IMG/VR virus record: IMGVR_UViG_3300044846_005229
Location: 207,986-271,985 of that record
From: a virus
Direction: 5' to 3' (one strand)
Length of the DNA: 64,000 bases
Shown here: one piece after another, positions 1,856-54,287 of the stretch
Layout of the letters: each line of letters opens with the position of its first letter
Position numbering within the stretch: position 1 is the first letter of the stretch
Notes under the pieces: generated by a model
Told to the model about the DNA's origin: nothing
Database searches by the model: none
Seen by the model: the letters and a program-made list of their open reading frames with translations, nothing else
Made by a program: the position numbers and the translations under genes

Positions 1856-2965
1856 CTACCGGATCCCAAGCAGTTTGTCAAGTTGTTGGGGCCGTAGGTC
1901 TGCTAGCCACTGCCGGAAGGTAGGGTACCTGCCGGAGCGTATTGCGAAACAGGCTGCCGATACTGAGGGGGCATCTTTGAGAATTGCAATGGCGAATTCC
2001 TTTTGCGTTAAGGCTCCATACTTAAGAAGCAGAGTCTCACATAAAGATTGCATCGCGGGGATAGCAGAGTCTAGATGAATCGAAAACTTGTCTCTATATT
2101 CTGGAAAGTGCAATAGAAACTCATCTAAATCGTCACTAAGAAACAATTCCGAAAAGTCTGGGTCGCCATTGTTCCATGCCCGGTGTAGTTGGCAGTATAA
2201 TCTAGACTTAATCTTAACCCTTCCAACCCCATCAAACAATACATAACCTTCATGATTTGAATCTCGCTTTTCAACTTTGGTAAGTACAGAGTCAAGGTCA
2301 CTGAATTCGTAAGATGGGGCCACCACATAGCCATACCACCCAAACTCTTCCAGATCACACTCTTCGAAGTCCTGATCTCGGTCTCGTACTGCTAGTAAGG
2401 GAAGTTTGGGCGCATCGTAGTTAATAACATCTTTATTATCTAGGTGACATAACTCAAAGATGTAGCAAATTGACGGGTCTAGGCATTCCTTTAAGTACCC
2501 TACTTTTTCGAATACATCCCAGAATAATTCATCAAAGGTTTTTTTAGTTTTTCCTACTAGGCCATCCCCTGCTACTGAACCAGAAGTTGAAACGAGCCAT
2601 TGCCCCCTATACTCAAACAATTTAATTAAGGAGCCGGAAAATTTCTCATAAACCTTGGTGCGAGACCAATCTAACTGATGGCAATGGCCCTCACCAATGT
2701 TAAAGAATCTATCGAACGCATATGCAACCAGGCGGTAATACGGCGAGTGATCCCCATCGTTATCAACACGCTCGACCACAGCACCACGGCAGGCACAAAC
2801 CAGCGGATTTGATTTGGATGCTAAAATCGTCCCATATTTCAAATTAAAAAGGTTCGGATACCTCTCATCGCGAGTAACACGAATGTCATACTCGGCCAGC
2901 TCGTCCAGGGCATTGTAACCCCGCTCGTTAAGCCAGTCAATCAAGTAGTGGCGCAAGTTTTCCAT
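1856..2965 (-). CDS. RNA ligase, T4 Rnl1-like
   Basis: A 369-residue ATP-dependent RNA ligase of the T4 Rnl1 type. The AMP-acceptor motif I is K108-F-S-G-S (the family pattern is KxDGS or similar). Further nucleotidyltransferase motifs are FEL at about 170-172, EGYVLFDG from 239 and KIKS at 251-254. Length matches T4 Rnl1 (374). In T4 this enzyme reseals tRNAs cut by host anticodon nucleases. Here it shares the genome with a large tRNA array and a Thg1-like enzyme, so tRNA repair or processing is the likely role (inference). The Asp usual in motif I is replaced by Ser. Confidence 0.85.
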   Translation of the reverse strand: MENLRHYLIDWLNERGYNALDELAEYDIRVTRDERYPNLFNLKYGTILASKSNPLVCACRGAVVERVDNDGDHSPYYRLVAYAFDRFFNIGEGHCHQLDWSRTKVYEKFSGSLIKLFEYRGQWLVSTSGSVAGDGLVGKTKKTFDELFWDVFEKVGYLKECLDPSICYIFELCHLDNKDVINYDAPKLPLLAVRDRDQDFEECDLEEFGWYGYVVAPSYEFSDLDSVLTKVEKRDSNHEGYVLFDGVGRVKIKSRLYCQLHRAWNNGDPDFSELFLSDDLDEFLLHFPEYRDKFSIHLDSAIPAMQSLCETLLLKYGALTQKEFAIAILKDAPSVSAACFAIRSGRYPTFRQWLADLRPQQLDKLLGIR

Positions 2966-6323: not shown

Positions 6324-6737
6324 TCATGGTTGTAACCTCCGAGTGTCCCCCGAGTGTCCTTCGTGGGGTTTTTCTTTTTCTTTCAGCCCCATCAGCTCGT
6401 CCTTTAAGTACACTAAATCAAGCTCAGCAATGCGTAGTTCCTTTTGTTTGTCATTAAGATGCTCCCATTGCGAGGAATGACATTCTTCAAGGCATAAGCT
6501 AGGACGATACGAGCCGTTAAGCGTGCCCCAAGGGCCGCCCCCCATTGCAATACCCATCTTGCTACTGAAAAAATAGGACCCTTCGTGGAAGGCTCTTGAA
6601 ATTACAGCAGCACGCACCAAATAATGCCACTGATGAAACCAAGGCAACTCACGATTTAGATTGGACTCTAGTTCTAGAAGATCATCAAAAAGCAACTGAA
6701 GACCTTCCCCCCCTGCTGATGGTTTGACCCCATACAA
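6324..6737 (-). CDS. hypothetical protein (137 aa)
   Basis: No family recognised. The C-terminal third is a likely coiled coil (QKELRIAELDLVYLKDELMGLKEKEK). The N-terminus overlaps the end of the preceding gene by about 50 bp, so the true start could be internal. Confidence 0.6.
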   Translation of the reverse strand: MYGVKPSAGGEGLQLLFDDLLELESNLNRELPWFHQWHYLVRAAVISRAFHEGSYFFSSKMGIAMGGGPWGTLNGSYRPSLCLEECHSSQWEHLNDKQKELRIAELDLVYLKDELMGLKEKEKPHEGHSGDTRRLQP

Positions 6738-6921
6738 TGTTTTTGCCGGTGTGGCGATAGCCTATGGACAATAGTTCTTTCGAATAATACCAGCGACCCC
6801 TACCCAACTCATCGCGCAATGGATAATATGCGCTTGGCCGAAAGGTGTTAAACCTAGTAATGATGTTTACCGCTGGGCCTAGTCGTTTTGACACGCCTTT
6901 TCCCAGGATTGGGTAGCTCAT
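6685..6921 (-). CDS. hypothetical protein (78 aa)
   Basis: Start chosen at the ATG of MSYPILGKG because it forms an ATGA overlap with the upstream stop (6918-6921) and is preceded by GGAGGG. A longer in-frame start at 6972 would overlap the neighbour extensively. Function unknown. Confidence 0.5.
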   Translation of the reverse strand: MSYPILGKGVSKRLGPAVNIITRFNTFRPSAYYPLRDELGRGRWYYSKELLSIGYRHTGKNIVWGQTISRGGRSSVAF

Positions 6922-7082
6922 AGCTGCACCCTCCGAAACCCGATAACCCACACCCAAGGGTTCGCTTCCCATGACCCTTCACCATTTATGTATCGGTGGG
7001 AGTGCTTAGGGTAGCTATCATTTTCTGAGACCCATTGAAGGTAGTCATTTCTTTCTGTACGGTGGTCAACGTGCATCATCAT
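6918..7082 (-). CDS. small hypothetical protein (54 aa)
   Basis: Starts at one of three consecutive ATG codons (7076-7082) overlapping the 3' end of the upstream gene. Rich in Trp, Tyr and His. Its stop overlaps the next gene's start (ATGA). Unknown function. Confidence 0.45.
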   Translation of the reverse strand: MMMHVDHRTERNDYLQWVSENDSYPKHSHRYINGEGSWEANPWVWVIGFRRVQL

Positions 7083-7245
7083 TTTTGTTGTTTGTACTCG
7101 CAGCATCCAGCAAGGACTCTACCCGAATCAACCGATTAGAAATGCTAAGCAGAATGTCCGTCAACCCCTCAATCTCCTCATGAATGTCCTGGTGGTGGAA
7201 TCGTAATGGCTTTTGAATTAGCTTATTGAATTTAGATTTTTTCAT
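7066..7245 (-). CDS. small hypothetical protein (59 aa)
   Basis: Begins MKKSKFNKLIQ. The middle (EEIEGLTDILLSISNRLIRVESLLDAA) is a heptad-like amphipathic helix, so a small coiled-coil protein is likely. An alternative start at 7305 would overlap the HNH gene. Confidence 0.5.
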   Translation of the reverse strand: MKKSKFNKLIQKPLRFHHQDIHEEIEGLTDILLSISNRLIRVESLLDAASTNNKNDDAR

Positions 7246-7273
7246 CTTGGCGTAGTAATAAGGATTGTGACAA

Positions 7274-7867
7274 TCATGCGTAGATATACTCACGCCATTC
7301 CGCAACTTCAGCCATGCTGATAGTCACTGTGATTTTATTGAATGGGGCTTTAGGGTTCCCTGCCAAGGTGGTCCCACGGCTATTTACCCTCGACTCCATC
7401 ATTCCCACCTGAAAACTATCCCAAGTGAATGGCAATGGCGCAACATTCGTAGTTTCCTTAGCAAATACCTTCTTCAAGGCCATAGCCCATTCTTCTGGGG
7501 TACGATTATCCTTGCAATTGTTGCATTCCAGGCAGCTAGTAACTAGGTTTTGCCAAGTGTCTTGGCCACCTCTGGACTTTGGAATTACGTGGTCGATTGT
7601 AAGATTAGGACCTGAATACCCGCAATATTGGCAAACATGCCTATCTCGCTTCAGGATCAAGGAACGGGAGGGTTTCCCGGCAAAGAGTTTAGATTGGGGG
7701 ACTTTGACATAGTGCTTTAGGCGGATAGTACGCTTGGACACAACGTGTGCTTTATTTTTCAACACCAAAATAGTCGCCCTCTTCCAACTCAACATCGTCA
7801 AAGGTTGATATGTAGCATTGAGTAATAAAATAGTCGAACCAACTTTGACAGGGATTTCTTTAGGCAT
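7274..7867 (-). CDS. HNH endonuclease (197 aa)
   Basis: Contains a full HNH nuclease core: CQYCG (about residues 79-83), then IDHVIPKSRGGQDTWQNLV and CLECNNCK, where the His, Asn and Cys pairs form the beta-beta-alpha metal site. The N-terminal ~70 residues (LLLNATYQPLTMLSWKRA) match the widespread bacterial HNH subfamily with that N-terminal region. It could be a stand-alone DNA-processing nuclease or homing-type; no intron is visible beside it. Confidence 0.85.
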   Translation of the reverse strand: MPKEIPVKVGSTILLLNATYQPLTMLSWKRATILVLKNKAHVVSKRTIRLKHYVKVPQSKLFAGKPSRSLILKRDRHVCQYCGYSGPNLTIDHVIPKSRGGQDTWQNLVTSCLECNNCKDNRTPEEWAMALKKVFAKETTNVAPLPFTWDSFQVGMMESRVNSRGTTLAGNPKAPFNKITVTISMAEVAEWREYIYA

Positions 7868-7934
7868 TCTTCGAGGTCTTTTTCAAATAGTGAGCATGTG
7901 GTTCTATTGCGCCATTAGTCCCATGTTCTTAAGG

Positions 7935-8189
7935 CTATACAACAGGGTCCTTAACTTCCCCAATGTCAAGGTCTACCAATCGTGTAAAATCATTGGCTTC
8001 CATTTGGGTAAATGGATTGAACCGAATTTCCCTACGGTTACCAACCTCATCAATGCTAAAATGCCTGTAGTATTCAACAGAGTCCTCATACTCAACATCA
8101 AACTGATACCCAAACATTGAGCCATTGCGCCCAGTAATTACGAATTTGCAATTTGCGTAACGAAAGTTGGATACGTCTGGGATTTCCAT
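7935..8189 (-). CDS. hypothetical protein (84 aa)
   Basis: Unrecognised, beta-rich, with charged residues throughout. The leader upstream of the ATG consists of repeated CAACCAACAACC units, a CA-rich type seen before other genes here. Confidence 0.6.
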   Translation of the reverse strand: MEIPDVSNFRYANCKFVITGRNGSMFGYQFDVEYEDSVEYYRHFSIDEVGNRREIRFNPFTQMEANDFTRLVDLDIGEVKDPVV

Positions 8190-8604: not shown

Positions 8605-10098
8605 TCAAGAGAGCAACCGACTCCTGATATTAGCCAGACTGTTTACATCTTCGCCATATACGCGACCGTCCAGGAAAACCGTTTTTAATTCCCCTAGTCC
8701 TTCCTGCTCATGGGTTTGCTGCTCATGGAGGACAAAGTCATCTCCTTCTTTTTCAACGCGGAGTAAACCCTTGGCCGATTTTTTCGTTCCAGAGTCAGTG
8801 ATTGGATCCTTAAAAATTTCTACACCTTGACCATCAACTTGACCCCAAGTGGATTTGAAAGCCATGCCAAAAGTATCGCGAGTGTGATATTGATAGGAAT
8901 AAGATCCTACACCAAGAACAACGTTGCTGCTGGCCCACTTGTTACGGTTCATATTTTCCAAGATAGAAAAAGCCCGTTGCAAGGTAATGGAATCACCGTA
9001 AATCAGACCAACCCTCGGATTAATTTCCCTGAAGCCACTTTCATTCACGGTGCCGCCAAACTCATCCCAAAGCAATTGCAGAGATCCCTTATGGGCAGGG
9101 CTGCCAGGTTCGGCATCAGGATTACCGCAAAGGATATGTTCGGGGTTACCGCTATCACCCCTGAGTACAACCTTAGCAAGTCCCATAGCGTCCGGTTGAC
9201 GGCTTAAGATAACATCCTTAAGTTGAACAGCAATTTTAGTCAAGACATTCCAGTAATCCCAAGTGTCACTAACAATACTGACGATACCACTGGGGTACCT
9301 GTCTTGAATAAGGCGCCGGTAAGTTTCCAACTCATTATCTTTACCGCCAATGCACATTACACTGTGCTCAGTAGCAGGGACACCGCCCGCGATAAACTCA
9401 GAGCCAACATCATAGTAGTCTTCTAGGAAGTCGATCGAGGGGATATTGTCCGAACCTGTAAACGAGAAAAGATGACCAATACCATGGGCAGCCCCATCAT
9501 GAATTCCACCAACACCCCTCAACGAAAAGTCGTGCGCCTGGAAATTAACAAAGCTGGGGTCAGCTCCCGTCAATGCAGCATAACGATCTAGCAAACGACG
9601 AAACTCGTAAGCAACGGTAGCGATATTGACTGTTTTCCAAATTTCCGACGAAAGGGCAGTTTCCACGTAGTTAGTCAACCAGTAGAATTCGTGAATAGTA
9701 TTCTGGATCGTCAAAAATGGTACTCTCAAATTGACTCGGCTTCCCTCAGGCAAAGCTTTAACCCTAAGGGGCATATAGCCGAGGTCATGTAAATCAGCCA
9801 GGTGATCTACTCCAACCGCCCCTGGGCCGAGGGCCGAATCCATACGCCTACGGTACTTTTCAAGTACTTGATCCTTTGGTTTATTGAAAAAGGAGTCATT
9901 CCACAAGTCTTGAAGATACCATTTAAGAGTGCCTTGAATCCCTGCCACTACGATTTTATGATCGAAATCCGGTAGCATCTTAGCCAGACGGTCAGATCTA
10001 GCGGTTTGATTGGTGTATACGATTTCGGTTTTGTCAGGGTATTGGTAGATATGCCCAGTCTTGTAAAAGTCGGTTGCGTGGGGGGCAAAAAGTTTCAT
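8605..10098 (-). CDS. nadV: nicotinamide phosphoribosyltransferase
   Basis: A 497-residue NAMPT/NadV enzyme that converts nicotinamide and PRPP to NMN. Hallmarks: DFSLRGVGG (the DFG-like segment), GATEHSVM-type active-site His in PATEHSVMC, SDTWDYW, and VVLRGDSGNP carrying the ribose-binding Asp. Length matches the family (~490). PRPP synthetase lies immediately upstream in the same direction with a 65-bp gap, supplying the cosubstrate. Such pairs occur in large phages and are linked to NAD replenishment, including countering NAD-depleting defences. Confidence 0.96.
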   Translation of the reverse strand: MKLFAPHATDFYKTGHIYQYPDKTEIVYTNQTARSDRLAKMLPDFDHKIVVAGIQGTLKWYLQDLWNDSFFNKPKDQVLEKYRRRMDSALGPGAVGVDHLADLHDLGYMPLRVKALPEGSRVNLRVPFLTIQNTIHEFYWLTNYVETALSSEIWKTVNIATVAYEFRRLLDRYAALTGADPSFVNFQAHDFSLRGVGGIHDGAAHGIGHLFSFTGSDNIPSIDFLEDYYDVGSEFIAGGVPATEHSVMCIGGKDNELETYRRLIQDRYPSGIVSIVSDTWDYWNVLTKIAVQLKDVILSRQPDAMGLAKVVLRGDSGNPEHILCGNPDAEPGSPAHKGSLQLLWDEFGGTVNESGFREINPRVGLIYGDSITLQRAFSILENMNRNKWASSNVVLGVGSYSYQYHTRDTFGMAFKSTWGQVDGQGVEIFKDPITDSGTKKSAKGLLRVEKEGDDFVLHEQQTHEQEGLGELKTVFLDGRVYGEDVNSLANIRSRLLS

Positions 10099-10163
10099 TG
10101 TTTGTTAGGGGTTTGGTTGCGTTTGGTTGCGTTTGGCGGTAGTTGCGTCCGGGTTAATAAGGC

Positions 10164-11084
10164 CTAGTTCACCCTGAGACAAGTCAAGTTGGCGGGTAGT
10201 TCCCGATAAAAGTCTCGATTCGGCAACATGTTCGCCACATAGAAGTGATCGATAAGGCCATCAAAAACCTCAAAACCCTTCGAGAAGATTCCATGGGTGA
10301 TATACAAGTCGATGCGGGATGGCTCGTATTTTTTCAGAACCTTGGCAAGTTCAATAAAGGTCCGACCACCATCGCAAATATCGTCAACAATAAGAAGGTT
10401 CTTCCCTTTGTAATCGCCGTCTTGGATCTCCGTTCGCAGGATTTCCCCATTTTCAGGGTTACGGACCTTAGTGGCATACTTGACTTCAGTAGACCCTCTA
10501 AATCTAGCAGCTACTTCCGCCCGTGGCACTGCGCCTTTATCAGGGGCAATGATTACGGTGGTGGGGTCCCACTCCATGCCTGAAGGTATCAATTCAAACT
10601 TACTCAAAAGGGAATCAACCTGATCGTTAACAAAGTTGGTGAATTCCCCAAAGATGCCCTCAGCTATAGGGCTATGAACATCCCACGTTGCCAAGAGGTC
10701 GCACTCGCCCAAATACGGCCTGAGGGAATTAGCAAACACCGACAGGGAGAAAGCTTCGCCTTCAGCACAAACTCTATCCTGGCGGCTATAGGGGAGATAG
10801 GGGATAAAAAGTTCCAACTTCCAAGGCTTGGGGAGCCCATCCCTCACTCTTTTAATCGCATCCAAAATAAGCAAAAGTTTCACCCATTCTTCGCCTTTGC
10901 CGTCGATGTCAGCAGTGACGAAGATTTCGGAGTATTCAGACAGACTATCAAGGTTAACTCCGTCTAAGATTCTAACTTGATGCTCTCCAGCCGAGAAAGT
11001 GAAGGTTGAGTAATTGATCTCTGTAGGAGGTTTCCCCTCGATTAGATCCCTCGTTAGATTGGTTGCAGTTATGTTGATTGTCAT
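10164..11084 (-). CDS. prs: ribose-phosphate pyrophosphokinase (PRPP synthetase)
   Basis: 306 residues with the Prs signature motifs: YSRQDRVC, WDVHSP, the APDKGAVPRA region and the PRPP-loop IVDDICDGGRTF near the C-terminus. It makes PRPP from ribose 5-phosphate and ATP, the substrate of the adjacent nicotinamide phosphoribosyltransferase. First gene of the unit from promoter 11136-11164. Start context AACAAAATGAC. Confidence 0.96.
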   Translation of the reverse strand: MTINITATNLTRDLIEGKPPTEINYSTFTFSAGEHQVRILDGVNLDSLSEYSEIFVTADIDGKGEEWVKLLLILDAIKRVRDGLPKPWKLELFIPYLPYSRQDRVCAEGEAFSLSVFANSLRPYLGECDLLATWDVHSPIAEGIFGEFTNFVNDQVDSLLSKFELIPSGMEWDPTTVIIAPDKGAVPRAEVAARFRGSTEVKYATKVRNPENGEILRTEIQDGDYKGKNLLIVDDICDGGRTFIELAKVLKKYEPSRIDLYITHGIFSKGFEVFDGLIDHFYVANMLPNRDFYRELPANLTCLRVN

Positions 11085-21114: not shown

Positions 21115-22239
21115 CTAGCAATGATAGTGATAGAATTTTTCTATGGTATCACCACACAAATAGTTGATTAATTCGTCATCAATCGTGTTTGGTAAAACGC
21201 ACTCATTTTTCATTACGTGGTCGGCTTCGTCAAATAGTCGGTTTACAATAGAAATAAGTTCGCTATAGGTGACCCTACCATACTTAATATCAAGAAGGAA
21301 CTCTGCGTCACCGACCAATTTTCTATCTACGAATAACTTACCGGCCCGCATCCCTTCAATAGCCATTTTCATAAGCCTCACGCAATGACTAGCATTCTTA
21401 CCATCATACCCACAAGCCCGTTCAATTTCAGATCGCTTGACATTTCTATTCGTCAACCAATCTTGATAGTTGCCCCATCTTTTTAGGTCTGCCCGGTATT
21501 GCTGACTGGAATGAAGCAAGGCCATGTATTCATCACTTGCCCTTGTGATTTTTTGTGTTTCGTCAAAGCATTGCGTTGGCAGAACACTCTGTTTCAGAAT
21601 ACCTTTCCAATCAATCTGGTTGTTAAGTAGCTCATACAGCTCTGTTGAGGGTTGATAGTATTCAATTCTATCTTTAATCAACAGATACAAATACTCAATA
21701 AACGACTCGATCTGCGACGGTGTTAAGCTCGGTGAAGGAACTCCGTAGTCTTCCCACTCTGGTTTCCTTGTTGGTGGATCCCGCAGCCATTTACGGTGAG
21801 TTTCCATCTTTTTGATTTGAGACTTTGCATACTGGACAAATGTGCCAGAGATTCTTTTGGAGATTAGTTTTGTTCGATTGTTGATCAGGGACTGCCCAAG
21901 GTAATCAAGGTAGATATAGCTATCGGGGGTCTGCCAAAGCATCTCCAGGATGTTGGGGTTTTGCGACCGTAACAGGCTGAGGTATCGCCTGATGCCATAA
22001 ACTACTGAGTCGGAATTGTCTAATTCAGGAAATCTTGTCCTAAAAGTTGGTTCCCCGTCATGCACCCACCCTTTATCCTTTTGCTCAAATGTTTCTAATG
22101 TAGTATAAAATCTCCTTGGTGCAACACAGATACCTTTAAAGTCAAGGTCTGACATTTCAGTATTTAGGCCATAGGCGTGACTACCTGACTTACAGAATAG
22201 AATCATTCCATCTTCAATTTCCTTTCGTGTAATTGTCAT
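21115..22239 (-). CDS. nucleotidyltransferase superfamily protein (374 aa)
   Basis: The N-terminal motif GSHAYGLNTEMSDLDFKG is the GS-x(n)-DxD signature of the pol-beta-type nucleotidyltransferase fold. Families with GSHAYG occur widely in large phages. The remaining ~300 residues are helical (LSLLRSQNPNILEMLW, ASHCVRLMKMAIEG). Target unknown; with a tRNA array nearby an RNA substrate is conceivable but unproven. Start context CAAAATGACA. Confidence 0.8.
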   Translation of the reverse strand: MTITRKEIEDGMILFCKSGSHAYGLNTEMSDLDFKGICVAPRRFYTTLETFEQKDKGWVHDGEPTFRTRFPELDNSDSVVYGIRRYLSLLRSQNPNILEMLWQTPDSYIYLDYLGQSLINNRTKLISKRISGTFVQYAKSQIKKMETHRKWLRDPPTRKPEWEDYGVPSPSLTPSQIESFIEYLYLLIKDRIEYYQPSTELYELLNNQIDWKGILKQSVLPTQCFDETQKITRASDEYMALLHSSQQYRADLKRWGNYQDWLTNRNVKRSEIERACGYDGKNASHCVRLMKMAIEGMRAGKLFVDRKLVGDAEFLLDIKYGRVTYSELISIVNRLFDEADHVMKNECVLPNTIDDELINYLCGDTIEKFYHYHC

Positions 22240-33879: not shown

Positions 33880-33979
33880 TGGGTTTTGTAGAGGGGTGAT
33901 CCGATGCCATTATAGGGCAAGTTTTCCCTGGGGAAACGGTCGGTTTTCCGAACCCATGGTTAAAACTCCGAAGCCAAAA

Positions 33980-34061
33980 TACCGAATGTCGGACTCGAAC
34001 CGACACGCCTTGCGGCAATCGCTTTTGAGGCGGCCATGACTACCAATTCCATCAATTCGGC
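33980..34061 (-). tRNA. trnL(caa): tRNA-Leu (CAA)
   Basis: Class II tRNA: acceptor GCCGAAT/ATTCGGT (G1:U72), D stem ATG/CAT, anticodon loop CTCAAAA, variable arm GCC-GCAA-GGC, T arm GTCGG-TTCGAGT-CCGAC, A73, CCA not encoded. Anticodon stem weak (one mismatch). Confidence 0.85.
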
Positions 34062-34189
34062 ATTTGCCCTGAGTAGCCAGCTCAAGGACTTTTTGGATGT
34101 TTGAACCGTCGCTCATTTCACCCTCCATTTTGATATGGGAGATGGGCTCCTTTAAGGAGTTAACTCCCGAGCAAGTTACTGATTGCTCA

Positions 34190-34303
34190 CCGATAGAATT
34201 TTGCTAACCTAAGTTAACAATGCACAGGTATTAATACCTGAGGGGCTATCTCCCAAAGTCTCAAGAATTCTTGAGACGCTTTTTACCCAGATATTCCGGG
34301 CAC
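34190..34303 (-). repeat. 114-bp perfect duplication, copy 1
   Basis: Identical to 49726-49839. On the minus strand it contains a 20-nt palindrome (GTCTCAAGAATTCTTGAGAC), a 16-nt palindrome (CAGGTATTAATACCTG) and smaller GGG..CCC and TAAC..GTTA stems. It lies between two tRNA-Leu genes here and inside a split tRNA-like gene at the other copy. Confidence 0.85.
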
Positions 34304-34340
34304 ACCGTCTCTTTTTGGCTGGCCCAGAGAAGACGGGCTA

Positions 34341-34421
34341 TGGGGGCAGGGGGACTCGAACCCCCACGGCCGAAGCCAGAAGTTTTTAAGACTTCCGTGT
34401 CTACCATTCCACCATGCTCCC
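34341..34421 (-). tRNA. trnL(taa): tRNA-Leu (TAA)
   Basis: Acceptor GGGAGCA/TGCCCCC (mismatch A4:C69), anticodon loop CTTAAAA-like within AAGTC-TTAAAAA, long variable arm (GGCTTCGGCC), T arm GGGGG-TTCGAGT-CCCCC, A73, no encoded CCA. Promoter 34433-34460 is immediately upstream. Confidence 0.85.
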
Positions 34422-46046: not shown

Positions 46047-46117
46047 ATCCCCTAGACAGAATTGAACTGTCGTCTCTCGCTTACAAGGCGAGTGCATCAC
46101 CACAATGCTTTAGGGGC
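46047..46117 (-). tRNA. trnT(tgt): tRNA-Thr (TGT)
   Basis: Acceptor GCCCCTA/TAGGGGA gives six pairs but a G1:A72 mismatch; D arm GCAT/ATGC; anticodon loop CTTGTAA; T arm GACAG-TTCAATT-CTGTC; U73; no encoded CCA. The position-1 mismatch is one of several in this genome. Confidence 0.85.
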
Positions 46118-46127
46118 AAGCGTTTCC

Positions 46128-46155
46128 ATTATAGCATGGCTTGGCAAAAAGTCAA
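46128..46155 (-). promoter_or_regulatory. sigma70-type promoter (TTGACT-16-TGCTATAAT)
   Basis: Near-consensus with extended -10, positioned 11 bp upstream of tRNA-Thr (TGT). Confidence 0.75.
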
Positions 46156-46245
46156 TGCCCCCAAAGTCAGGGTGCCGGTTTTGACACCCCGCGCCTCTAG
46201 ATTACGGACTGTAAGGGCCAATAAACGGGATGCCCCCCCTCTCTC

Positions 46246-46677
46246 CTACACCACAACCAAGTTATCACGAACCCAATCAGATGAGTAAGAATACACCTCA
46301 TCATCAATACCAATAGCAACATAGTCAGGGTGTGAGACCGTGGTATCGCCTTCCCTTGTTTTAAGGATTACGGTGACCTCAAGGGGGACGGGGACAAATT
46401 TGCACAGGGCACTGCGGCGATACATGCCAGAATTAGGCTCAGTTTCTTCCCAGGAGCCAGGAAAAATATCAACCTTACACGGGTACGGCTGTGACCCATC
46501 GACCGGCATCAGTACATAGTCAATGCCTTCGACGGCAGTTAAATCACCCCTTTCTCGGGGGAAGACTTCGGTACCGACCGTCGGGCGAATGCGGACCAGG
46601 GTTTTTCGTCTTGCAGTCAAGGGTTGCCCGAAAGCTGCGATGACTTCGGTTCCGGTTGTGAATGTAAGGGTTGTCAT
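46246..46677 (-). CDS. PGDYG-like protein (143 aa)
   Basis: Contains PTVGTEVFPRERGDLTA, the PGSWEETEPNSGMYRRSALCK block resembling phage PGDYG-domain proteins, and a C-terminal VAIGIDDEVYS. Unknown function. Promoter 46736-46764 upstream. Confidence 0.55.
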   Translation of the reverse strand: MTTLTFTTGTEVIAAFGQPLTARRKTLVRIRPTVGTEVFPRERGDLTAVEGIDYVLMPVDGSQPYPCKVDIFPGSWEETEPNSGMYRRSALCKFVPVPLEVTVILKTREGDTTVSHPDYVAIGIDDEVYSYSSDWVRDNLVVV

Positions 46678-46735
46678 TTTTGATGTTGGTTTGGGTGGTG
46701 GGTTTAGGTTTGGAGCTAGACGGTTAGACCCCCGT

Positions 46736-46764
46736 AGTTTAGCAGGCCACTAGGGCAAAGTCAA
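46736..46764 (-). promoter_or_regulatory. sigma70-type promoter (TTGACT-17-TAAACT)
   Basis: -35 TTGACT, 17-bp spacer, TGC-TAAACT, upstream of 46246-46677. Confidence 0.65.
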
Positions 46765-46899
46765 GGGTGGTTCCAGGTCCGTGAGGGAATTTGGAATGGT
46801 AACTCTTCGTCAGATTTCCTGGTATGTCGTCCCTCCTGGCAATGAGATACCGCATCAACGCATCACAAATTGTGCTAGGGGGAACCAAACTGGGTACAA

Positions 46900-47316
46900 T
46901 CAGTTCCGATTGGTCGGAGCAGTCAGGATTGGTAACCCGCCTTGGTTGGGCGCTACGAAATAGGTCTTGTTTCCCTTTTCCGCCCCTTCCTCAATGTGTT
47001 GAATCTGCAGGAACGTCAAATACTCAGGGTTATCCTTAAGGCTGGCACCAATAATTTTATTGGATTCTGCGATACCTTCAGCTTCTTTGATGCGAACTTC
47101 TTTCAGCTTTTCGGCACTATCGAGTTTAGCTTGGGCTTCCAAAACTGCTACTTGGCGCGTATATTCGGCCTTTTGCAACTCGGCTTTTCCTTCCAGGGAC
47201 TGCTGCCAGACTCCGTATTGGGGAAGTACAAACATTGCGGTCGCAATGATGGCCGCCAAAAGGAATGCCAGGATGCCAAAAATGACGCCGCCTGAGTAAC
47301 TGTCTGAGTGCTTCAT
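46900..47316 (-). CDS. membrane-anchored coiled-coil (prohibitin-like) protein (138 aa)
   Basis: Start MKHSDSYSGGVIFG. One N-terminal transmembrane helix (IFGILAFLLAAIIATAMFVL), then a charged helix (LQKAEYTRQVAVLEAQAKLD) and a C-terminal EEGAEKGNKTYFVAPNQGGLP segment like those ending SPFH/band-7-type phage membrane proteins. Probably an inner-membrane assembly factor; not proven. Confidence 0.6.
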   Translation of the reverse strand: MKHSDSYSGGVIFGILAFLLAAIIATAMFVLPQYGVWQQSLEGKAELQKAEYTRQVAVLEAQAKLDSAEKLKEVRIKEAEGIAESNKIIGASLKDNPEYLTFLQIQHIEEGAEKGNKTYFVAPNQGGLPILTAPTNRN

Positions 47317-47391
47317 GGTGCGATTGGTTGTTGGTGGTTGGTTGTTTGAGGTAGTGATTTGGCCTAATCGGGGGGGGAACCCGGTAGGCAA

Positions 47392-47467
47392 AGTTCCAGG
47401 CCGGATTCGAACCGGCGAAAATGCGAGTTTTGCAGACTCGTGCCTTAGACCACTTGGCGACTGGAAC
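47392..47467 (-). tRNA. trnC(gca): tRNA-Cys (GCA)
   Basis: Acceptor GTTCCAG/CTGGAAC fully paired, anticodon loop CTGCAAA, T arm CCGG-TTCGAAT-CCGG, U73, no CCA. Confidence 0.9.
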
Positions 47468-47477
47468 ATTCGATTGT

Positions 47478-47505
47478 ATTATAGGGTGCCCAATGGGCGA
47501 GTAAA
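47478..47505 (-). promoter_or_regulatory. promoter (TTTACT-16-TATAAT)
   Basis: -35 TTTACT, 16-bp spacer, perfect TATAAT, 11 bp before tRNA-Cys. Confidence 0.65.
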
Positions 47506-47509
47506 CCGA

Positions 47510-47692
47510 TTAGACTCGGATCGTGTTGAAGCCATTCTCAAAACCGTCACCGTACCCTTGGCTATAGGCTTTTGTGTCGATTATTCTGCACCACTCCAGG
47601 AAGTGTTCGAGAGATAAGTCCCCAGCGGCTACTGTTTCAAAGATCTCAGTGGCTGTGGGATAGACCACAAACAGTTCGTCAAAGGTTTTCAT
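47510..47692 (-). CDS. small hypothetical protein (60 aa)
   Basis: MKTFDELFVVYPTATEIFE; ends DTKAYSQGYGDGFENG. Small acidic helical phage protein; starts overlap the preceding frame by ATGA. Confidence 0.6.
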   Translation of the reverse strand: MKTFDELFVVYPTATEIFETVAAGDLSLEHFLEWCRIIDTKAYSQGYGDGFENGFNTIRV

Positions 47693-47838
47693 AGTTGTTG
47701 ATCTGTAGAATGGTTCTTTTGTTGGAGTCTACGTGCTTTCCTAGCAAACCTTTTCCAAATTTGTTTGGCGACTTTCGTAGGAAAGTCTCTCATCTCCCTA
47801 AGGTATCGGCTCTGATTTCGACTTACTGGTTTTGCCAT
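47689..47838 (-). CDS. small basic protein (49 aa)
   Basis: MAKPVSRNQSRYLREMRD start, very basic. Overlaps both neighbours by ATGA junctions and the 3' end of the 82-aa gene. Possibly nucleic-acid binding. Confidence 0.5.
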   Translation of the reverse strand: MAKPVSRNQSRYLREMRDFPTKVAKQIWKRFARKARRLQQKNHSTDQQL

Positions 47839-48071
47839 TTCTCTTCAAGAAAATCGGTGTCTTGCTGAGTTATCTTGTGAAGCCTTTCGTAAAATTGTTC
47901 TAACTTTTGATCGACCTCTTCTCTGTCTACTGTCATTGGCATGTTCAAGCGGGCGTCTTCTAATGATGACAAGGCATCACGAACTAAAGTTTTGAGGGAC
48001 CCTACTTGTTTTCCAAGATGGTGCATCTCGTCTCGCTGCTGTTCTAGGGGGGGGGGGTCAATGTTTGCCAT
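47823..48071 (-). CDS. hypothetical protein (82 aa)
   Basis: Helical, coiled-coil-like (DEMHHLGKQVGSLKTLVRDAL, KLEQFYERLHKITQQ). Contains a run of nine C coding near its start. Promoter 48098-48126 upstream. Confidence 0.6.
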   Translation of the reverse strand: MANIDPPPLEQQRDEMHHLGKQVGSLKTLVRDALSSLEDARLNMPMTVDREEVDQKLEQFYERLHKITQQDTDFLEEKWQNQ

Positions 48072-48097
48072 TGTGTTGGGAATTTGAAGCCGTGGAT

Positions 48098-48126
48098 ACT
48101 ATAGCACCTTACACAGGGTAAGGCAA
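48098..48126 (-). promoter_or_regulatory. sigma70-type promoter (TTGCCT-17-TATAGT)
   Basis: Extended TGC-TATAGT with 17-bp spacer to TTGCCT, before 47823-48071. Confidence 0.6.
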
Positions 48127-48190
48127 GCCCCGGAACTGGCCTAGACAGGGAGGCAAACCACCCTTAACCAATTTGTAGACTCCCATGGTT

Positions 48191-48556
48191 TCAGAGTTGG
48201 GAAAGAGTAAGCCCCAAGTAGCAAAATTGATGAAGGAGCTGATCAAAACCGATCAAAACCCAAAAAGCTTTGTCAGTAGTGGACATTCCAAGCTTTAGGG
48301 TGATATTCTGCTTTGACCAATCGATGTGGTAGTGGAGCATACCGTCAATGGCCCCTAAAACTAGGGCCACACTTGGCAGAAAAGGAAAGGTAACCAGCAC
48401 TGTTGCCAATGCGTGTTTTATCGAGTGTTGGATTCCAATTGGATGCAAGTAAGTGCCTTTATGCTTCACTTCGTCTTCCGTTTGTAGACACCAATCTACC
48501 GCGAAGTGTTTAATAAGGAGTAATGAAAGCAAGGCTAAGGCTTTTTGAGGGTCCAT
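48191..48556 (-). CDS. DUF3307 membrane protein (121 aa)
   Basis: LLIKHFAVDWCLQTEDEVKHKG, HPIGIQHSIKHALATVLV, GAIDGMLHYHIDWSKQN and FDQLLHQFCYLGLTL match DUF3307, a multi-helix membrane family of phages and bacteria. Conserved His/Asp pairs are retained. Function unknown. Confidence 0.8.
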   Translation of the reverse strand: MDPQKALALLSLLLIKHFAVDWCLQTEDEVKHKGTYLHPIGIQHSIKHALATVLVTFPFLPSVALVLGAIDGMLHYHIDWSKQNITLKLGMSTTDKAFWVLIGFDQLLHQFCYLGLTLSQL

Positions 48557-48604
48557 GGGAACTTGTAAGGCAAGTTTACAACTTGGGTGCGTATCTTAGT
48601 GTAA

Positions 48605-48676
48605 TGGGGGATATCGGGCTTGAACCGATGGCGGCCTGTTTGTAGGACAGGTGCTCTACCACTGAGCTAATCCCCC
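48605..48676 (-). tRNA. trnV(tac): tRNA-Val (TAC)
   Basis: Acceptor GGGGGAT/ATCCCCC paired, D arm GCTC/GAGC, anticodon loop CCTACAA, T arm ATCGG-TTCAAGC-CCGAT, A73, no CCA. Confidence 0.9.
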
Positions 48677-48705
48677 AATAAAGACCAACGATGACCACCC
48701 CTACT

Positions 48706-50078: not shown

Positions 50079-50150
50079 TGGCGGAAGCTGGATTTGCACC
50101 AGCGATCTTCAGGGTATGAGCCTGACGAGATTCTACTTCTCTACTCCGCG
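50079..50150 (-). tRNA. trnfM(cat): initiator-like tRNA-Met (CAT)
   Basis: Acceptor CGCGGAG/TTCCGCC with C1:C72 mismatch, anticodon loop CTCATAC, T arm GCTGG-TGCAAAT-CCAGC, A73, no CCA. The unpaired 1:72 is the hallmark of bacterial initiator tRNA (normally C1:A72). D-loop lacks GG and the anticodon stem is TCAGG/CCTGA, so not perfectly canonical. Confidence 0.75.
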
Positions 50151-50178
50151 TTATTGTACCGTGTGTTAATTACGGTAA

Positions 50179-50249
50179 TCGGGATGGAAGGTACTGCCCC
50201 TTCTATTCTGCTTCCCAAAAGCAGTGTGATACTTTTCTACTACACCCCG
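50179..50249 (-). tRNA. trnP(tgg): tRNA-Pro (TGG), atypical T-loop
   Basis: Acceptor CGGGGTG/CATCCCG paired, anticodon loop TTTGGGA, A73, no CCA. T-stem GAAGG/CCTTC but the T-loop reads GGCAGTA instead of the usual TTC-type loop; D-loop is short. Confidence 0.75.
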
Positions 50250-50327
50250 ATGTCTACCTAATGTTACCCTTCCGGTTCCATGCCCATGCTTGCAAAACAG
50301 GTGCCCCCCCAATTGAGCTATGACCCC
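50250..50327 (-). tRNA. trnA(tgc): tRNA-Ala (TGC), degenerate 3' half
   Basis: 5' acceptor GGGGTCA, D arm GCTC/GGGC, anticodon loop TTTGCAA are Ala-like, but no TGACCCC 3' strand is present and the T-arm is not recognisable. Probably decayed, or its 3' end would need heavy editing. Directly abuts the Pro tRNA. Confidence 0.45.
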
Positions 50328-50331
50328 GTGT

Positions 50332-50472
50332 TCATCTAATGCTTTCTAACATATAGGTTTTACCCTTGAGTGTGACAGTGAGCGAAGGGTTAGCTATGGC
50401 AGCAGCCAGTTGCTTCCTTGCCTTAGGGTCGTTTAATATCCCCTTAATTAACCTGGTTGGTTCTACTTTCAT
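50332..50472 (-). CDS. small basic protein inside the tRNA array (46 aa)
   Basis: MKVEPTRLIKGILNDPKARK start in the genome-typical context GATAAAATG; Lys/Ala-rich helix and TLKGKTYMLESIR end. Lies between tRNA-Phe and tRNA-Ala, with its stop 5 bp before tRNA-Ala. Possibly a nucleic-acid-binding protein; unknown. Confidence 0.5.
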   Translation of the reverse strand: MKVEPTRLIKGILNDPKARKQLAAAIANPSLTVTLKGKTYMLESIR

Positions 50473-50504
50473 TTTATCAGGGTTTGTGTGGCCATCCGAC
50501 TTGA

Positions 50505-50598
50505 GGGAACTTTAAGATTTGAGTTATGGCCAAAAAGTCATACAAGATGGTTGTTTTTTCTACCAAAAAGAAAGTTTTTAGATTGCTGAACCATCTTA
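50505..50598 (-). repeat. tRNA-adjacent repeat 1, copy 2
   Basis: Near-identical to 49968-50067, downstream of tRNA-Phe; ends with AAGATGGTTCAGCAATC and an AACCATCTTG partner. A third, weaker relative is at 51962-52026. Confidence 0.7.
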
Positions 50599-50618
50599 GT
50601 TTTGCTATCGCAAAACAA

Positions 50619-50695
50619 CCGGAAATCGCAGAATCGAACTGCGGACCTCTCGTTTTTCAGACGAGCGCTCTTCACCAAGACTGAGCTAATTCCCG
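50619..50695 (-). tRNA. trnF(gaa): tRNA-Phe (GAA)
   Basis: Acceptor CGGGAAT/ATTTCCG (G4:U69), anticodon loop CTGAAAA, T arm CGCAG-TTCGATT-CTGCG, G73, no CCA. Followed by hairpin GTTTTGC-GATA-GCAAAAC. Confidence 0.9.
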
Positions 50696-50757
50696 TTTTT
50701 TACCCGGGTTTGATCTCCCGGTAGTTATTACCCCCAGACTTTCACCTGAGGGCAAAT

Positions 50758-50827
50758 TGAACGCACGGGACTCGAACCCGCATCCTCCACCAACCCGGTG
50801 GCGCTCTACCACTTGGAGCTAACGTCC
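50758..50827 (-). tRNA. tRNA, probably Thr (GGT), with reduced anticodon loop
   Basis: Acceptor GGACGTT/TGCGTTC pairs at six of seven positions, T arm GCGGG-TTCGAGT-CCCGT, A73. The anticodon arm CCACC-GGGTT-GGTGG leaves only five loop bases (or a seven-base loop lacking U33). Anticodon GGT by symmetry is a guess. Confidence 0.5.
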
Positions 50828-50963
50828 AAATCCCTTTGAATAAACCTGCAAGTTACTTTTAAGGGCCGGGTATTACAATTGCAGTTGCTTTCCCCTCGGG
50901 ACTTTCACCCGTATATGCAACTCTGTTAATTCGTGGTTGCTAACGATTTCCCGTTTCCGGAAA

Positions 50964-51034
50964 CGGGGTATAGGGGACTCGAACCCCCCTTTGCGAGTAG
51001 ACAGCCCGCAGCCTTCCCTGACGGCAAATACCCT
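50964..51034 (-). tRNA. trnD(gtc): tRNA-Asp (GTC), A1:C72 mismatch
   Basis: D stem GCC/GGC, anticodon loop CTGTCTA, T arm GGGGG-TTCGAGT-CCCCT, acceptor AGGGTAT/ATACCCC pairs except A1:C72, G73 as in tRNA-Asp. No CCA. A 5' G would restore the pair. Confidence 0.85.
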
Positions 51035-51100
51035 ATTTGCCCCTGCCCTGGCTCACTTGCTTGTTCCGAAGAACCGCACTAGCAAACCTGCTGGAGGCAA

Positions 51101-51173
51101 CACCCAATGAGGGAGTCGAACCCCCGTATTCTAATTCGTAGCCAGACGCTTTAATCCACTAAGCTAATTGGGC
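51101..51173 (-). tRNA. trnR(acg): tRNA-Arg (ACG)
   Basis: Acceptor GCCCAAT/ATTGGGT (G1:U72), anticodon loop CTACGAA, T arm CGGGG-TTCGACT-CCCT-type, G73, no CCA. A 5' leader hairpin AGTTTTC-TGCC-GAAAACT lies just upstream. Confidence 0.85.
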
Positions 51174-51228
51174 AGTTTTCTGCCGAAAACTTTCAGAGTG
51201 TTCTCGTAAGTTTCTCGTTAGAGAAACA

Positions 51229-51309
51229 TGGCCCCCAAGGGACTTGAACCCTTACAGCTTTCGCTGGGAGTTTTTAAGACTCCTGTGTCTACCCTTCCAC
51301 CAGAAGGCC
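51229..51309 (-). tRNA. trnL(taa): tRNA-Leu (TAA), second gene
   Basis: Acceptor GGCCTTC/GGGGGCC (G:U pairs), anticodon loop CTTAAAA, class II variable arm, T arm AAGGG-TTCAAGT-CCCTT, A73. Followed by GTTTCTC-TAAC-GAGAAAC trailer hairpin (51210-51227). Confidence 0.9.
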
Positions 51310-51368
51310 ATTTGGTGTTAAATTTTCAAGTTGCTGGTTGAGAGTTTTGACTCTGCCAACCTGTCACT

Positions 51369-51396
51369 ATTATAGCGTCTCTGCGGGCAGAGACAA
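51369..51396 (-). promoter_or_regulatory. internal tRNA-array promoter (TTGTCT-16-TATAAT)
   Basis: Class 2-like promoter with perfect TATAAT and the GGTTAACCG segment upstream, driving the left part of the tRNA array. Confidence 0.7.
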
Positions 51397-51482
51397 GGGC
51401 GGTTAACCGAACGTTTGCTGAGCAAACGACACCGGAGAGATGGCCCCCCGAGATTTATCTTAAGTTTCCTCGTCAGAGAAAA

Positions 51483-51554
51483 AGCGGGTAGGGGTAGTCG
51501 AAACCCCGTCTACTGCTTGGAAGGCAGTCATATTGGCCGTTATACGATACCCGC
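51483..51554 (-). tRNA. trnG(tcc): tRNA-Gly (TCC)
   Basis: Acceptor GCGGGTA/TACCCGC paired, anticodon loop CTTCCAA, T arm GGGG-TTTCGACT-CCCC with an enlarged loop, U73, no CCA. Confidence 0.85.
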
Positions 51555-51594
51555 ATTTTGTATGTTGCTTCGGTAATGTTTACGTCAGCAAAAG

Positions 51595-51667
51595 GGTGAT
51601 GAACGGGAATCGGACCCGCGCTAGTCTGGCTCACAACCAGATGCCTTACCACTTGGCTACCACCACC
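51595..51667 (-). tRNA. trnH(gtg): tRNA-His (GTG) with encoded G-1
   Basis: Acceptor GTGGTGG/TCATCAC paired with an additional genomic G-1 opposite C73, anticodon loop TTGTGAG, T arm GCGGG-TCCGATT-CCCGT. Bacterial tRNA-His is normally encoded with G-1, so the Thg1-like enzyme is not needed for this tRNA. Confidence 0.85.
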
Positions 51668-51765
51668 ATGGTGCCCTAGGTTTGTATCCAACGGTAATGA
51701 AACTTTAAGGTGATGGTCTCCCATTTCCACCCTAAGTCATATTACCCAGACTCAACCGTAAGCAA

Positions 51766-51921
51766 TGCCCCAACCAGGGGTTCGAACCTGGAGGCAAAAG
51801 AATCTATTTTCAATAAGAAGGTTTGATTTCAAGGCCACACCTTATCAACGTAGGTTCAATACGCCTATCAGCATTTACTCGTAGATTTGAACCCTGATGC
51901 CTGTTCCAACTACTTTGGGAC
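51766..51921 (-). other. interrupted tRNA-like locus B
   Basis: 5' GTCCCAA pairs fully with 3' TTGGGGC (A73), and a TTCGAACC T-loop is present (8 nt). Between the halves lie about 80 extra bases including a stem GGTTCAA..TTGAACC plus TACG..CGTA whose loop holds GTAAATGCTGATAG, and a second stem ATAAGG..CCTTcTTAT. No anticodon arm resolved. Confidence 0.4.
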
Positions 51922-52034
51922 TTTTTTCGTGTTTTGAACATTCCTAACAAAGTTAGGCTAGATGATTGTTTTTCCAATTTCGAAGGAGTTGATCGCTGAA
52001 TCATCTAAGTTTGCAACTGCAAAACAATGGCAAA

Positions 52035-52115
52035 TGCCCACCGGGGGACTCGAACCCCCACGCCTTTCGGCACATGGGCCTAAACCATGCGTGACTTCCA
52101 TTCCACCAGGCAGGC
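52035..52115 (-). tRNA. trnL(tag): tRNA-Leu (TAG)
   Basis: Acceptor GCCTGCC/GGTGGGC paired, anticodon arm GCATGG-TTTAGGC-CCATG, variable arm GCC-GAAA-GGC, T arm GGGGG-TTCGAGT-CCCCC, A73, no CCA. Followed by TTTTGC-AGTT-GCAAA hairpin. Confidence 0.9.
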
Positions 52116-52145
52116 TTTTTTCTAGGGGTTTTTCAAAGAAAAACA

Positions 52146-52303
52146 TTGAAGTGGAGAGGCTTGAACTCTCAATGTTAAGATTGCGTCTGGCTGCTACTTA
52201 ACAGGTGGTTTCAACCATGAGCCAGGAAGTTGCTATTAGCATTTACAACCCCATCCGTATCGGCTGATTCCACACCCCCGTATACCAGTTCCGGCACACT
52301 TCT
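52146..52303 (-). other. interrupted tRNA-like locus C, Ser (TGA)-type
   Basis: Class II pattern: acceptor AGAAGTG/CACTTCA (A1:A72 mismatch, six pairs), D arm CCG-GAACTGGTATA-CGG, T arm GAGAG-TTCAAGC-CTCTC, variable arm GTTAAG..CTTAAC. A candidate anticodon arm (GTGG/CCAC with TTGAAA, i.e. TGA) is split by about 55 extra bases that hold GTTG-TAAATGCTAATAG-CAAC. Confidence 0.5.
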
Positions 52304-52321
52304 TCTTTCCTTAGAAAGAAA

Positions 52322-52402
52322 CTGGAGCGGAAGGACTCGAACCTTCATTGTCTTTCGACACTCGTTAACAGCGAGTTGCATTTCCAATTATGCTACACCC
52401 CA
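52322..52402 (-). tRNA. trnN(gtt): tRNA-Asn (GTT) with long variable arm
   Basis: Acceptor TGGGGTG/CGCTCCA paired, anticodon arm ACTCG-CTGTTAA-CGAGT, T arm GAAGG-TTCGAGT-CCTTC, G73 as in Asn. The variable region is 13 nt and forms GTC-GAAA-GAC, whereas tRNA-Asn normally has about five. Confidence 0.85.
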
Positions 52403-52563
52403 TTACACCCTGCGTTACGGCAGGGGACAGTAGGAAACACTCTGGGGTCGCATTGCGTCCCGGTGTGAGTACGAATCGTTACTTAAACCGGTTATTACTG
52501 ACCCTTAGCTGCAAACCGGAAACCTGTGCTAAAGGACTTTTTCCTTTCCCGTTAGGGAAAGAA

Positions 52564-52637
52564 TGGGAGCGGTCGGGATCGAACCGACGACCTATCGGTT
52601 ATCAACCGAGTGCTCTAGACCGCTGAGCTACGCTCCC
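52564..52637 (-). tRNA. trnI(gat): tRNA-Ile (GAT)
   Basis: Acceptor GGGAGCG/CGCTCCC paired, anticodon loop TTGATAA, T arm GTCGG-TTCGATC-CCGAC, A73, no CCA. Followed by CTTTCCC-TAAC-GGGAAAG hairpin (52544-52561). Confidence 0.9.
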
Positions 52638-52703
52638 TTGGTGTTAAATTGTCTAGTTTCTGTCAATGGCGTAACCAGTGGCGTTACTACCAGCGACACC
52701 CTT

Positions 52704-52732
52704 AGTATAGGGTCTTGCCCCGGTAAAGTAAA
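52704..52732 (-). promoter_or_regulatory. promoter (TTTACT-17-TATACT)
   Basis: -35 TTTACT, 17-bp spacer, TATACT upstream of tRNA-Ile, after a hairpin CTTTCGC-TAAG-CGAAA. Confidence 0.6.
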
Positions 52733-52843
52733 GGACGGTTTGCCGCCCCCACCTTACGGACTTTTTCGCGTTTTTCGCTTAGCGAAAGTTGCCTTGCGAT
52801 TAAACCTTACCAGGGTTAGCTGGTGGGTTAATCTTAGAGCAAA

Positions 52844-52970
52844 TTGACTACCGAGGACTTGCACCTCGACCCCCTCTGTCCAAAACTACTCGCAGGTACG
52901 GAACTTGGCCTTCGTTCTATCTTACTGCTTTCGCCCAAAGGGACATGCTGACTTCTAACACTCGTAGTCA
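52844..52970 (-). other. interrupted tRNA-like locus D
   Basis: Perfect acceptor TGACTAC/GTAGTCA with A73, T arm CGAGG-TGCAAGT-CCTCG, and a candidate anticodon stem TGTCC/GGACA. The loop between the two anticodon-stem halves holds about 60 nt instead of 7, beginning CTTTGGG and ending GTAGTTTT, with internal stems GCAG..CTGC and GAAC..GTTC. Either an unusual intron-containing tRNA (Lys or Gln guessed from the loop ends) or another structured RNA. Confidence 0.5.
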
Positions 52971-53132
52971 AAGTCCATTTTACGTCAGGGCGGACACACC
53001 CCGTTTGCCTTTGGAAAACCAAAGATTTAACCTACCTAGATTTACCCTCTTACACGATAACTCGTTTTGATGCAATCTCCCGATCTGCAGAGGCAAAGTA
53101 GGCTAGCCCCGTGGATTAATCCCATAGGGCCA

Positions 53133-53206
53133 TACTCTAGAAGGGATTCGAACCCTCGATTTCCTGCTTGAAAGGCAGGCGACTTAGACCGCTTGTCCAC
53201 TAGAGC
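53133..53206 (-). tRNA. trnE(ttc): tRNA-Glu (TTC)
   Basis: Acceptor GCTCTAG/CTAGAGT (G1:U72), anticodon arm CCTGC-CTTTCAA-GCAGG, D arm GAC/GTC, T arm GAGGG-TTCGAAT-CCCTT, A73, no CCA. Confidence 0.9.
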
Positions 53207-53513: not shown

Positions 53514-54287
53514 CTAAGCAACAAAATCCCCTAGCTGAATCCTGCCCTCCGGCACCCATTCTTTGACAATGGCCCTAATTATGGGCTTATTCGGTCTATA
53601 CTGGGGGGGAATATCCGACATGTCCAAACTCTCGGGTCCAACCAAAACCCGTTGACGCTTAATGTAGGTCCCATGGGTGAATGCCCTAGGGAGTTCTTCC
53701 CATGGTTTCCCTATTTGTTTCAGCAAGGTTTTCATTTCTTCGCAAGTTACCCCTTGAAGGTCCTTATGTGAAAATAAACTCTGGGCATACATTGACACTG
53801 AGTTTTTCGTAGCGTCATTGAGCCTCCATAGGAAGTTCTTATAGACGTATTCCAAATTAGGGACATTCCATACCCTGCAGTCAAATACGGGGTACTGGCC
53901 TACCTTTTCAGGGAGATATTCAGGTAAGTTTCCTGTGAAAAATGCCCCCGCTGTCGAGGCCAGTATTGATGTCAGCTTCTGGTATTTGCCCCTAAATAGA
54001 AATTCCCTATTGGAGTAATTCCGCTTGTCAAGATGCCAATACAAAGTTATCTCATCGGATTGGCAATACCCTAGTAAAGCCTCACTTTCGGTAACAAGGT
54101 GCCTTGTGGTAGCAACCATTAGGTTAACGAATCGCTCATCAAACGGCTTTTGGAGGTTATGGGTAAACGAACTAAAGGTCCTCCCATCGATGCGGCACAT
54201 TAAAGGGCGGAAGGGATTTGCAGTCCTGCCTGCCTCTTTTTGCTCTTGTTCTTTTAGGGTGTCGCCCAGGGTGTCAGTGTGTGGCAT
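53514..54287 (-). CDS. thg1: Thg1-like tRNA 3'-5' polymerase (tRNA-His guanylyltransferase family)
   Basis: 257 residues. Contains CRIDGRTFSSFT (R32-IDGR, D34) and YCQSDEITL (SDE at 77-79), the metal-binding D and DE of the Thg1 palm domain. Thg1 adds G-1 to tRNA-His; Thg1-like proteins also repair or edit tRNA 5' ends in a template-dependent way. Since this phage tRNA-His already encodes G-1 while other tRNAs show position-1 mismatches, 5' repair or editing is the more likely role (inference). It lies upstream of the tRNA array in the direction of transcription. Confidence 0.9.
   Translation of the reverse strand: MPHTDTLGDTLKEQEQKEAGRTANPFRPLMCRIDGRTFSSFTHNLQKPFDERFVNLMVATTRHLVTESEALLGYCQSDEITLYWHLDKRNYSNREFLFRGKYQKLTSILASTAGAFFTGNLPEYLPEKVGQYPVFDCRVWNVPNLEYVYKNFLWRLNDATKNSVSMYAQSLFSHKDLQGVTCEEMKTLLKQIGKPWEELPRAFTHGTYIKRQRVLVGPESLDMSDIPPQYRPNKPIIRAIVKEWVPEGRIQLGDFVA

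Follow-up and report, generated by a model that had tools for sequence, protein, structure and literature searches.

Does this virus carry a system for mending damaged tRNAs? The window analysed here, a stretch of 64,000 nucleotides (positions 207,986 to 271,985 of IMG/VR record IMGVR_UViG_3300044846_005229), is part of a virus record of 279,339 bp that may itself be incomplete. A first-pass annotation had noted a T4 Rnl1-type RNA ligase, a Thg1-like enzyme and many tRNAs in the window, and had raised the possibility that together they serve tRNA repair. We consider it probable that the ligase acts in a dispersed phage kit for maintaining tRNAs under attack by host tRNases. This reading draws on the identity, fold and motifs of the parts (Table 1), their co-presence in one record and their linkage in relatives.

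Table 1. Features of the window and of the wider record
Feature	Coordinates	Strand	Basis
T4 Rnl1-family RNA ligase, 369 aa	window 1856..2965	-	Pfam, PHROG, profile and fold match
Motif I codons K108-F-S110-G111, Asp to Ser	window 2633..2644	-	alignment of 78 sequences
Nicotinamide phosphoribosyltransferase (NAMPT) and ribose-phosphate pyrophosphokinase (PRS) genes	window 8605..11084	-	Pfam/PHROG matches
RlaP (RNA-ligase-associated Pol-beta-type) nucleotidyltransferase, 374 aa	window 21115..22239	-	Pfam PF10127, 2.0e-18
Two tRNA-Leu genes (caa, taa)	window 33979..34421	-	ARAGORN
tRNA genes Thr(tgt), Cys(gca), Val(tac)	window 46047..48677	-	ARAGORN
Main tRNA array, 13 genes	window 50079..53206	-	12 by ARAGORN, one by Rfam only (50179-50249)
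Thg1-like protein (TLP), 257 aa	window 53514..54287	-	PF04446 (Pfam Thg1), 9.9e-29
PF09414 ligase, 210 aa	record 120333-120965
CCA-type nucleotidyltransferase, 249 aa	record 178920-179669
PPP-type phosphatase, adjoining the kinase	record 182059-182781
Pnkp-type kinase	record 182877 to ~183374		AAA_33 match
Naegleria-Rnl-like ligase	record 200561-201652		Naegleria Rnl match 7.5e-85; intact KLDG

The ligase and candidate healing enzymes

The ligase ORF is open and intact, and its assignment to the T4 Rnl1 family was borne out by matches to Pfam RNA_lig_T4_1 (1.3e-14; score 55 bits, cut-off 28.3) and PHROG 562 (1.2e-37). A PDB search with the single sequence returned nothing useful, whereas a profile of 53 relatives matched the T4 Rnl1 structure at 3.9e-38. 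An AlphaFold model (mean pLDDT 89.2) aligned with T4 Rnl1 (2c5u) over residues 7 to 369 (Z 25.0, rmsd 4.4, 338 residues aligned). The match to the second-best fold family, fungal tRNA ligase (Z 17), was over by residue 292, and the predicted structure therefore retains the helical C-terminal domain that is peculiar to Rnl1. The phage protein shares with T4 Rnl1 the ligase family, the full-length fold, the catalytic Lys and motifs IV and V, at about 20% identity (21% in one alignment). Homologues were also found at 16 loci in bacterial and archaeal assemblies, at identities of up to 41% from which no host was inferred, and a count of HIP1 sites, which hint at a cyanobacterial host, gave zero.

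In T4, cleavage of tRNA-Lys by PrrC is reversed by Pnk(p) (PseT) together with Rnl1 (gp63), and removal of the wobble nucleotide by RloC may defeat this pair (PMC2610378). The first-pass annotation had found no healing enzyme, which holds for the window, where a Pnkp-like kinase is absent, but probably not for the record. The search of the remaining genome that it recommended, for Pnkp or RtcB, revealed a Pnkp-type kinase with an adjoining PPP-type phosphatase outside the window; the kinase contains the sole AAA_33 match found in all 279,339 bp (record 182949-183329). RtcB, KptA and the 2H phosphoesterase PF13563 had no match anywhere in this possibly incomplete record.

The closest solved relative of the kinase is the kinase domain of Clostridium thermocellum Pnkp (CthPnkp), whose type of metallophosphoesterase domain is among the matches of the phage phosphatase. 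The latter is closest to lambda phosphatase and also matched the metallophosphoesterase 4j6o. The lambda phosphatase family acts on phosphoproteins as well. In four relatives (L126, L127, L129 and L130), with Rnl1 proteins that share 41-45% identity with that of this phage, Rnl1 is preceded by tRNA genes and followed, 2-4 kb downstream, by homologues of both phosphatase and kinase. In this record, as in the four relatives, kinase, phosphatase and ligase each have their own ORF, unlike the single kinase-phosphatase-ligase chain of bacterial Pnkp. They differ likewise from T4 Pnkp, since the phage candidates are two proteins with a phosphatase of PPP type and T4 has a fused HAD domain. A T4-type Pnk was found within 8 kb of Rnl1 in 21 other loci among the 78 searched, mostly directly downstream.

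Further parts are present in the record. The first-pass annotation had overlooked RlaP in the window (its PF10127 match spans record 229778-230194), and besides Rnl1 there are two PF09414 RNA ligases and a CCA-type nucleotidyltransferase. In the scheme that we infer, from the attacking nuclease through each enzymatic step to the joint action of the parts, a host defence tRNase would cut a tRNA, as a rule within its anticodon loop, and the broken ends would bear a 2',3'-cyclic phosphate and a 5'-OH. Removal of the phosphate would be the task of the PPP phosphatase, the Pnkp-type kinase would phosphorylate the 5' end, and RlaP might restore a lost nucleotide. Sealing would fall to Rnl1 or to the Naegleria-Rnl-like ligase. 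Completion of 3' ends would be left to the CCA-type enzyme, and acceptor stems shortened at the 5' end would be refilled by the Thg1-like protein. If this is true, the phage can reverse damage both at the ends and in the middle of tRNAs.

A more specific version of this scheme is possible, though doubtful. Mending would be mosaic, with a stand-alone kinase of bacterial Pnkp type and a lambda-type PPP phosphatase readying the ends for sealing by a KxSG Rnl1, whose Ser would mark an altered step or substrate preference.

Motif I of the ligase

Motif I of the ligase reads EKFSGSLIKL, so the Ser in place of Asp that the first-pass annotation had seen is confirmed. We aligned 78 sequences, comprising T4, this gene and 76 IMG/VR loci. 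KxDG is present in 74 of them; the remaining four have KFSG and consist of this gene and three relatives that are 97% identical. KYDG occurs in a cousin that is 63% identical. The Ser codon is TCC in all four carriers, and Ser110 is therefore real and not a sequencing error, because three IMG/VR contigs have the identical codon. The phage protein also differs from T4 Rnl1 in having Ser at the column of T4 Lys119, as do 28 of the 78 sequences, the KFSG clade among them. Judged by the motifs of the Rnl1 family, the catalytic Lys, EG and KxK are present and the Asp of KxDG is Ser, a change that may alter the chemistry of the enzyme. As an active-site variant that occurs naturally, the KxSG Rnl1 lends itself to direct comparison with its KxDG cousins.

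It is unlikely, in our judgement, that sealing by the KFSG protein is lost or restricted and that this protein now serves as an RNA-binding or partner protein, leaving the Naegleria-Rnl-like ligase to seal. The near-universal Asp at this position is consistent with such a loss, as are the ligation defects caused by changes of Asp101 in T4 and the presence of an intact KLDG ligase in the same record. However, dN/dS against the three 97%-identical relatives is 0.08-0.09, and the gene is therefore still kept by selection. Lys108, Gly111, Glu239-Gly240, Lys251 and Lys253, which are invariant across 53 Rnl1 sequences, are retained, and T4 Rnl2 and fungal tRNA ligase function with His or Asn at the position of the motif I Asp.

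A separate observation concerns L125, a locus on a contig shared with L018. At about 6548-8002, its Rnl1 is broken directly after KYDG by split-intein-like halves (C-LHAETKVETSKG... and ...GVLVHN preceding S), between which the other strand has an open stretch, possibly an endonuclease gene. In that contig the frame of the N-half is broken.

Dispersal and linkage of the repair genes

The repair parts in this record are spread over about 140 kb, and the preferred reading of a joint kit has to be weighed against the view that a large genome acquired unrelated genes that form no joint system. This dispersal is what such a view would predict, and in 50 records the distances between the Thg1-like gene and repair genes were near random, with nominal enrichment for RlaP alone (uncorrected P 0.027). 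Tight clusters elsewhere argue against it, and we regard it as quite unlikely. For example, Vibrio phage D69 has a cassette of a CCA enzyme, a nucleotidyltransferase, Thg1, Rnl1 and Pnk within 11 kb; L064 has RlaP, an Rnl5-type ligase, a Thg1-like gene and Rnl1 all within 7 kb; and L028 has a cluster of a CCA enzyme, a small ligase, a Thg1-like gene and tRNAs. The candidate healing loci of L126-L130 described above are further cases.

Arrays of tRNA genes also accompany Rnl1 in relatives, with 6-31 tRNAs within 8 kb in L115-L120, L122 and L123, and 5-25 in L127, L129 and L130. Among 50 contigs, all chosen as carriers of a Thg1-like gene, 30 have an RNA ligase. Seventeen of the 50 reach 200 kb or more, and a ligase is present in 14 of these, a CCA-type enzyme in 11 and RlaP in nine.

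Genes that may restore NAD+ lie close by, and relatives of this phage have NAMPT and PRS grouped with an HNH gene, Rnl1 and the Naegleria-Rnl-like ligase. In this record a macro-type protein and a NADAR protein are found near the Naegleria-Rnl-like ligase. The macro domain is a putative assignment made by reading the sequence, and the PHROG label there is 'phosphatase'. The proximity of NAMPT and PRS to Rnl1 suggests that RNA repair and NAD+ restoration are durably linked. Membership of NAMPT and PRS in the kit is uncertain. If the kit acts as proposed, these nearby genes may restore NAD+, and two common bacterial shutdown routes could be blunted during infection. At several unrelated loci (L152, L163, L171, L175, L179 and L182), NAMPT and PRS also follow Rnl1-Pnk immediately.

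Iyer et al. (2021, PMC7824862) surveyed 224 jumbo phages and described RNA-repair kits with Rnl1, Rnl2, RlaP, a CCA enzyme, Thg1, Macro and NADAR, and also phosphatases, which are calcineurin-like in a few phages. Several ligases, RlaP, the CCA enzyme, Thg1, tRNAs, Macro and NADAR are shared with the present phage. Since the survey already describes such a make-up, our finding is a further example of the published kits. What is unusual is the KFSG change, with no KxSG Rnl1 described in the survey text consulted, and the mosaic candidate healing locus of the relatives.

The Thg1-like protein and the tRNA genes

The Thg1-like protein has RIDGR and QSDE motifs, and its closest solved structure is the TLP of Bacillus thuringiensis (4kgk, 4.3e-24; PMC3701042), with which it shares the catalytic carboxylates (Asp34, Asp78 and Glu79). 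In contrast to that protein, it is virus-borne and heads a tRNA array. The distance from the Thg1-like gene to the first tRNA on the same strand is about 150-650 bp in this phage and in L012, L013, L028, L029 and L033, and about 3.8 kb in L027. Regions of roughly 20 kb surrounding the Thg1-like gene contain tRNAs in 11 of 20 records, against 3 of 20 for regions elsewhere in the same records, a modest enrichment (Wilcoxon P 0.04) among records some of which are related. The position of the gene offers a direct way into the function of a phage 3'-5' polymerase.

In vitro, bacterial TLPs rebuild 5' ends that have been shortened, and do so on many tRNAs (PMC3701042); by analogy the phage protein would do the same. 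The proposal that the ligase and the Thg1-like enzyme serve tRNA upkeep is supported by comparison, given the Rnl1 relatives beside up to 31 tRNAs and the Thg1-like gene at the head of an array, here and in relatives. Any tie of the Thg1-like protein to anticodon cuts would be hypothetical; its family refills the 5' ends of acceptor stems (PMC3701042).

The window contains 18 tRNA genes, in keeping with the many noted before; 17 were called by ARAGORN and one by Rfam (50179-50249), the latter being Pro(tgg) in the relaxed mode of ARAGORN. None of the 17 ARAGORN tRNAs has CCA encoded after the discriminator. Correction of 5' mismatches in encoded tRNAs occurs in some protist mitochondria, and the Thg1-like protein could be an enzyme of tRNA maturation and not of repair, adding G-1 to tRNA-His or correcting encoded 5' mismatches. 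The place of its gene at the head of the array fits this reading, as do the mismatched first acceptor pairs of tRNA-Thr(tgt) at 46047-46117 (G-A), a mismatch common to L013, and of tRNA-Asp(gtc) at 50963-51035 (A-C). However, both G-1 and C73 are already encoded in tRNA-His, and we rejected the addition of G-1. Editing of encoded mismatches was likewise set aside, since a first-pair mismatch was present in 20 of 265 tRNAs and 14 of these 20 are tRNA-Met(cat), as expected for initiators. We regard maturation, too, as quite unlikely.

For the ligase, a role as tail-fibre attachment factor, which is the second role of T4 gp63 and the label of PHROG 562, is very improbable, given that this label derives from T4 only and that the neighbours of Rnl1 in relatives are tRNAs, kinases and phosphatases.

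Several tRNA-like elements were also observed. One at window 52842-52978 on the minus strand has an 8-bp acceptor-like stem and a T-arm-like hairpin, and the long section that they enclose lacks a regular anticodon arm. Introns were considered for the tRNAs of the array and discarded, since relaxed settings of ARAGORN yielded implausible calls only. Related tRNA-like genes with a two-base anticodon 'aa', according to ARAGORN, occur in L027 (8051-8121) and L028 (13971-14041). In addition, the tRNA-His genes of L012 (12790-12861) and L027 (10192-10264) have A73 for C73 and mispaired acceptor stems, and are perhaps decayed or recombined copies.
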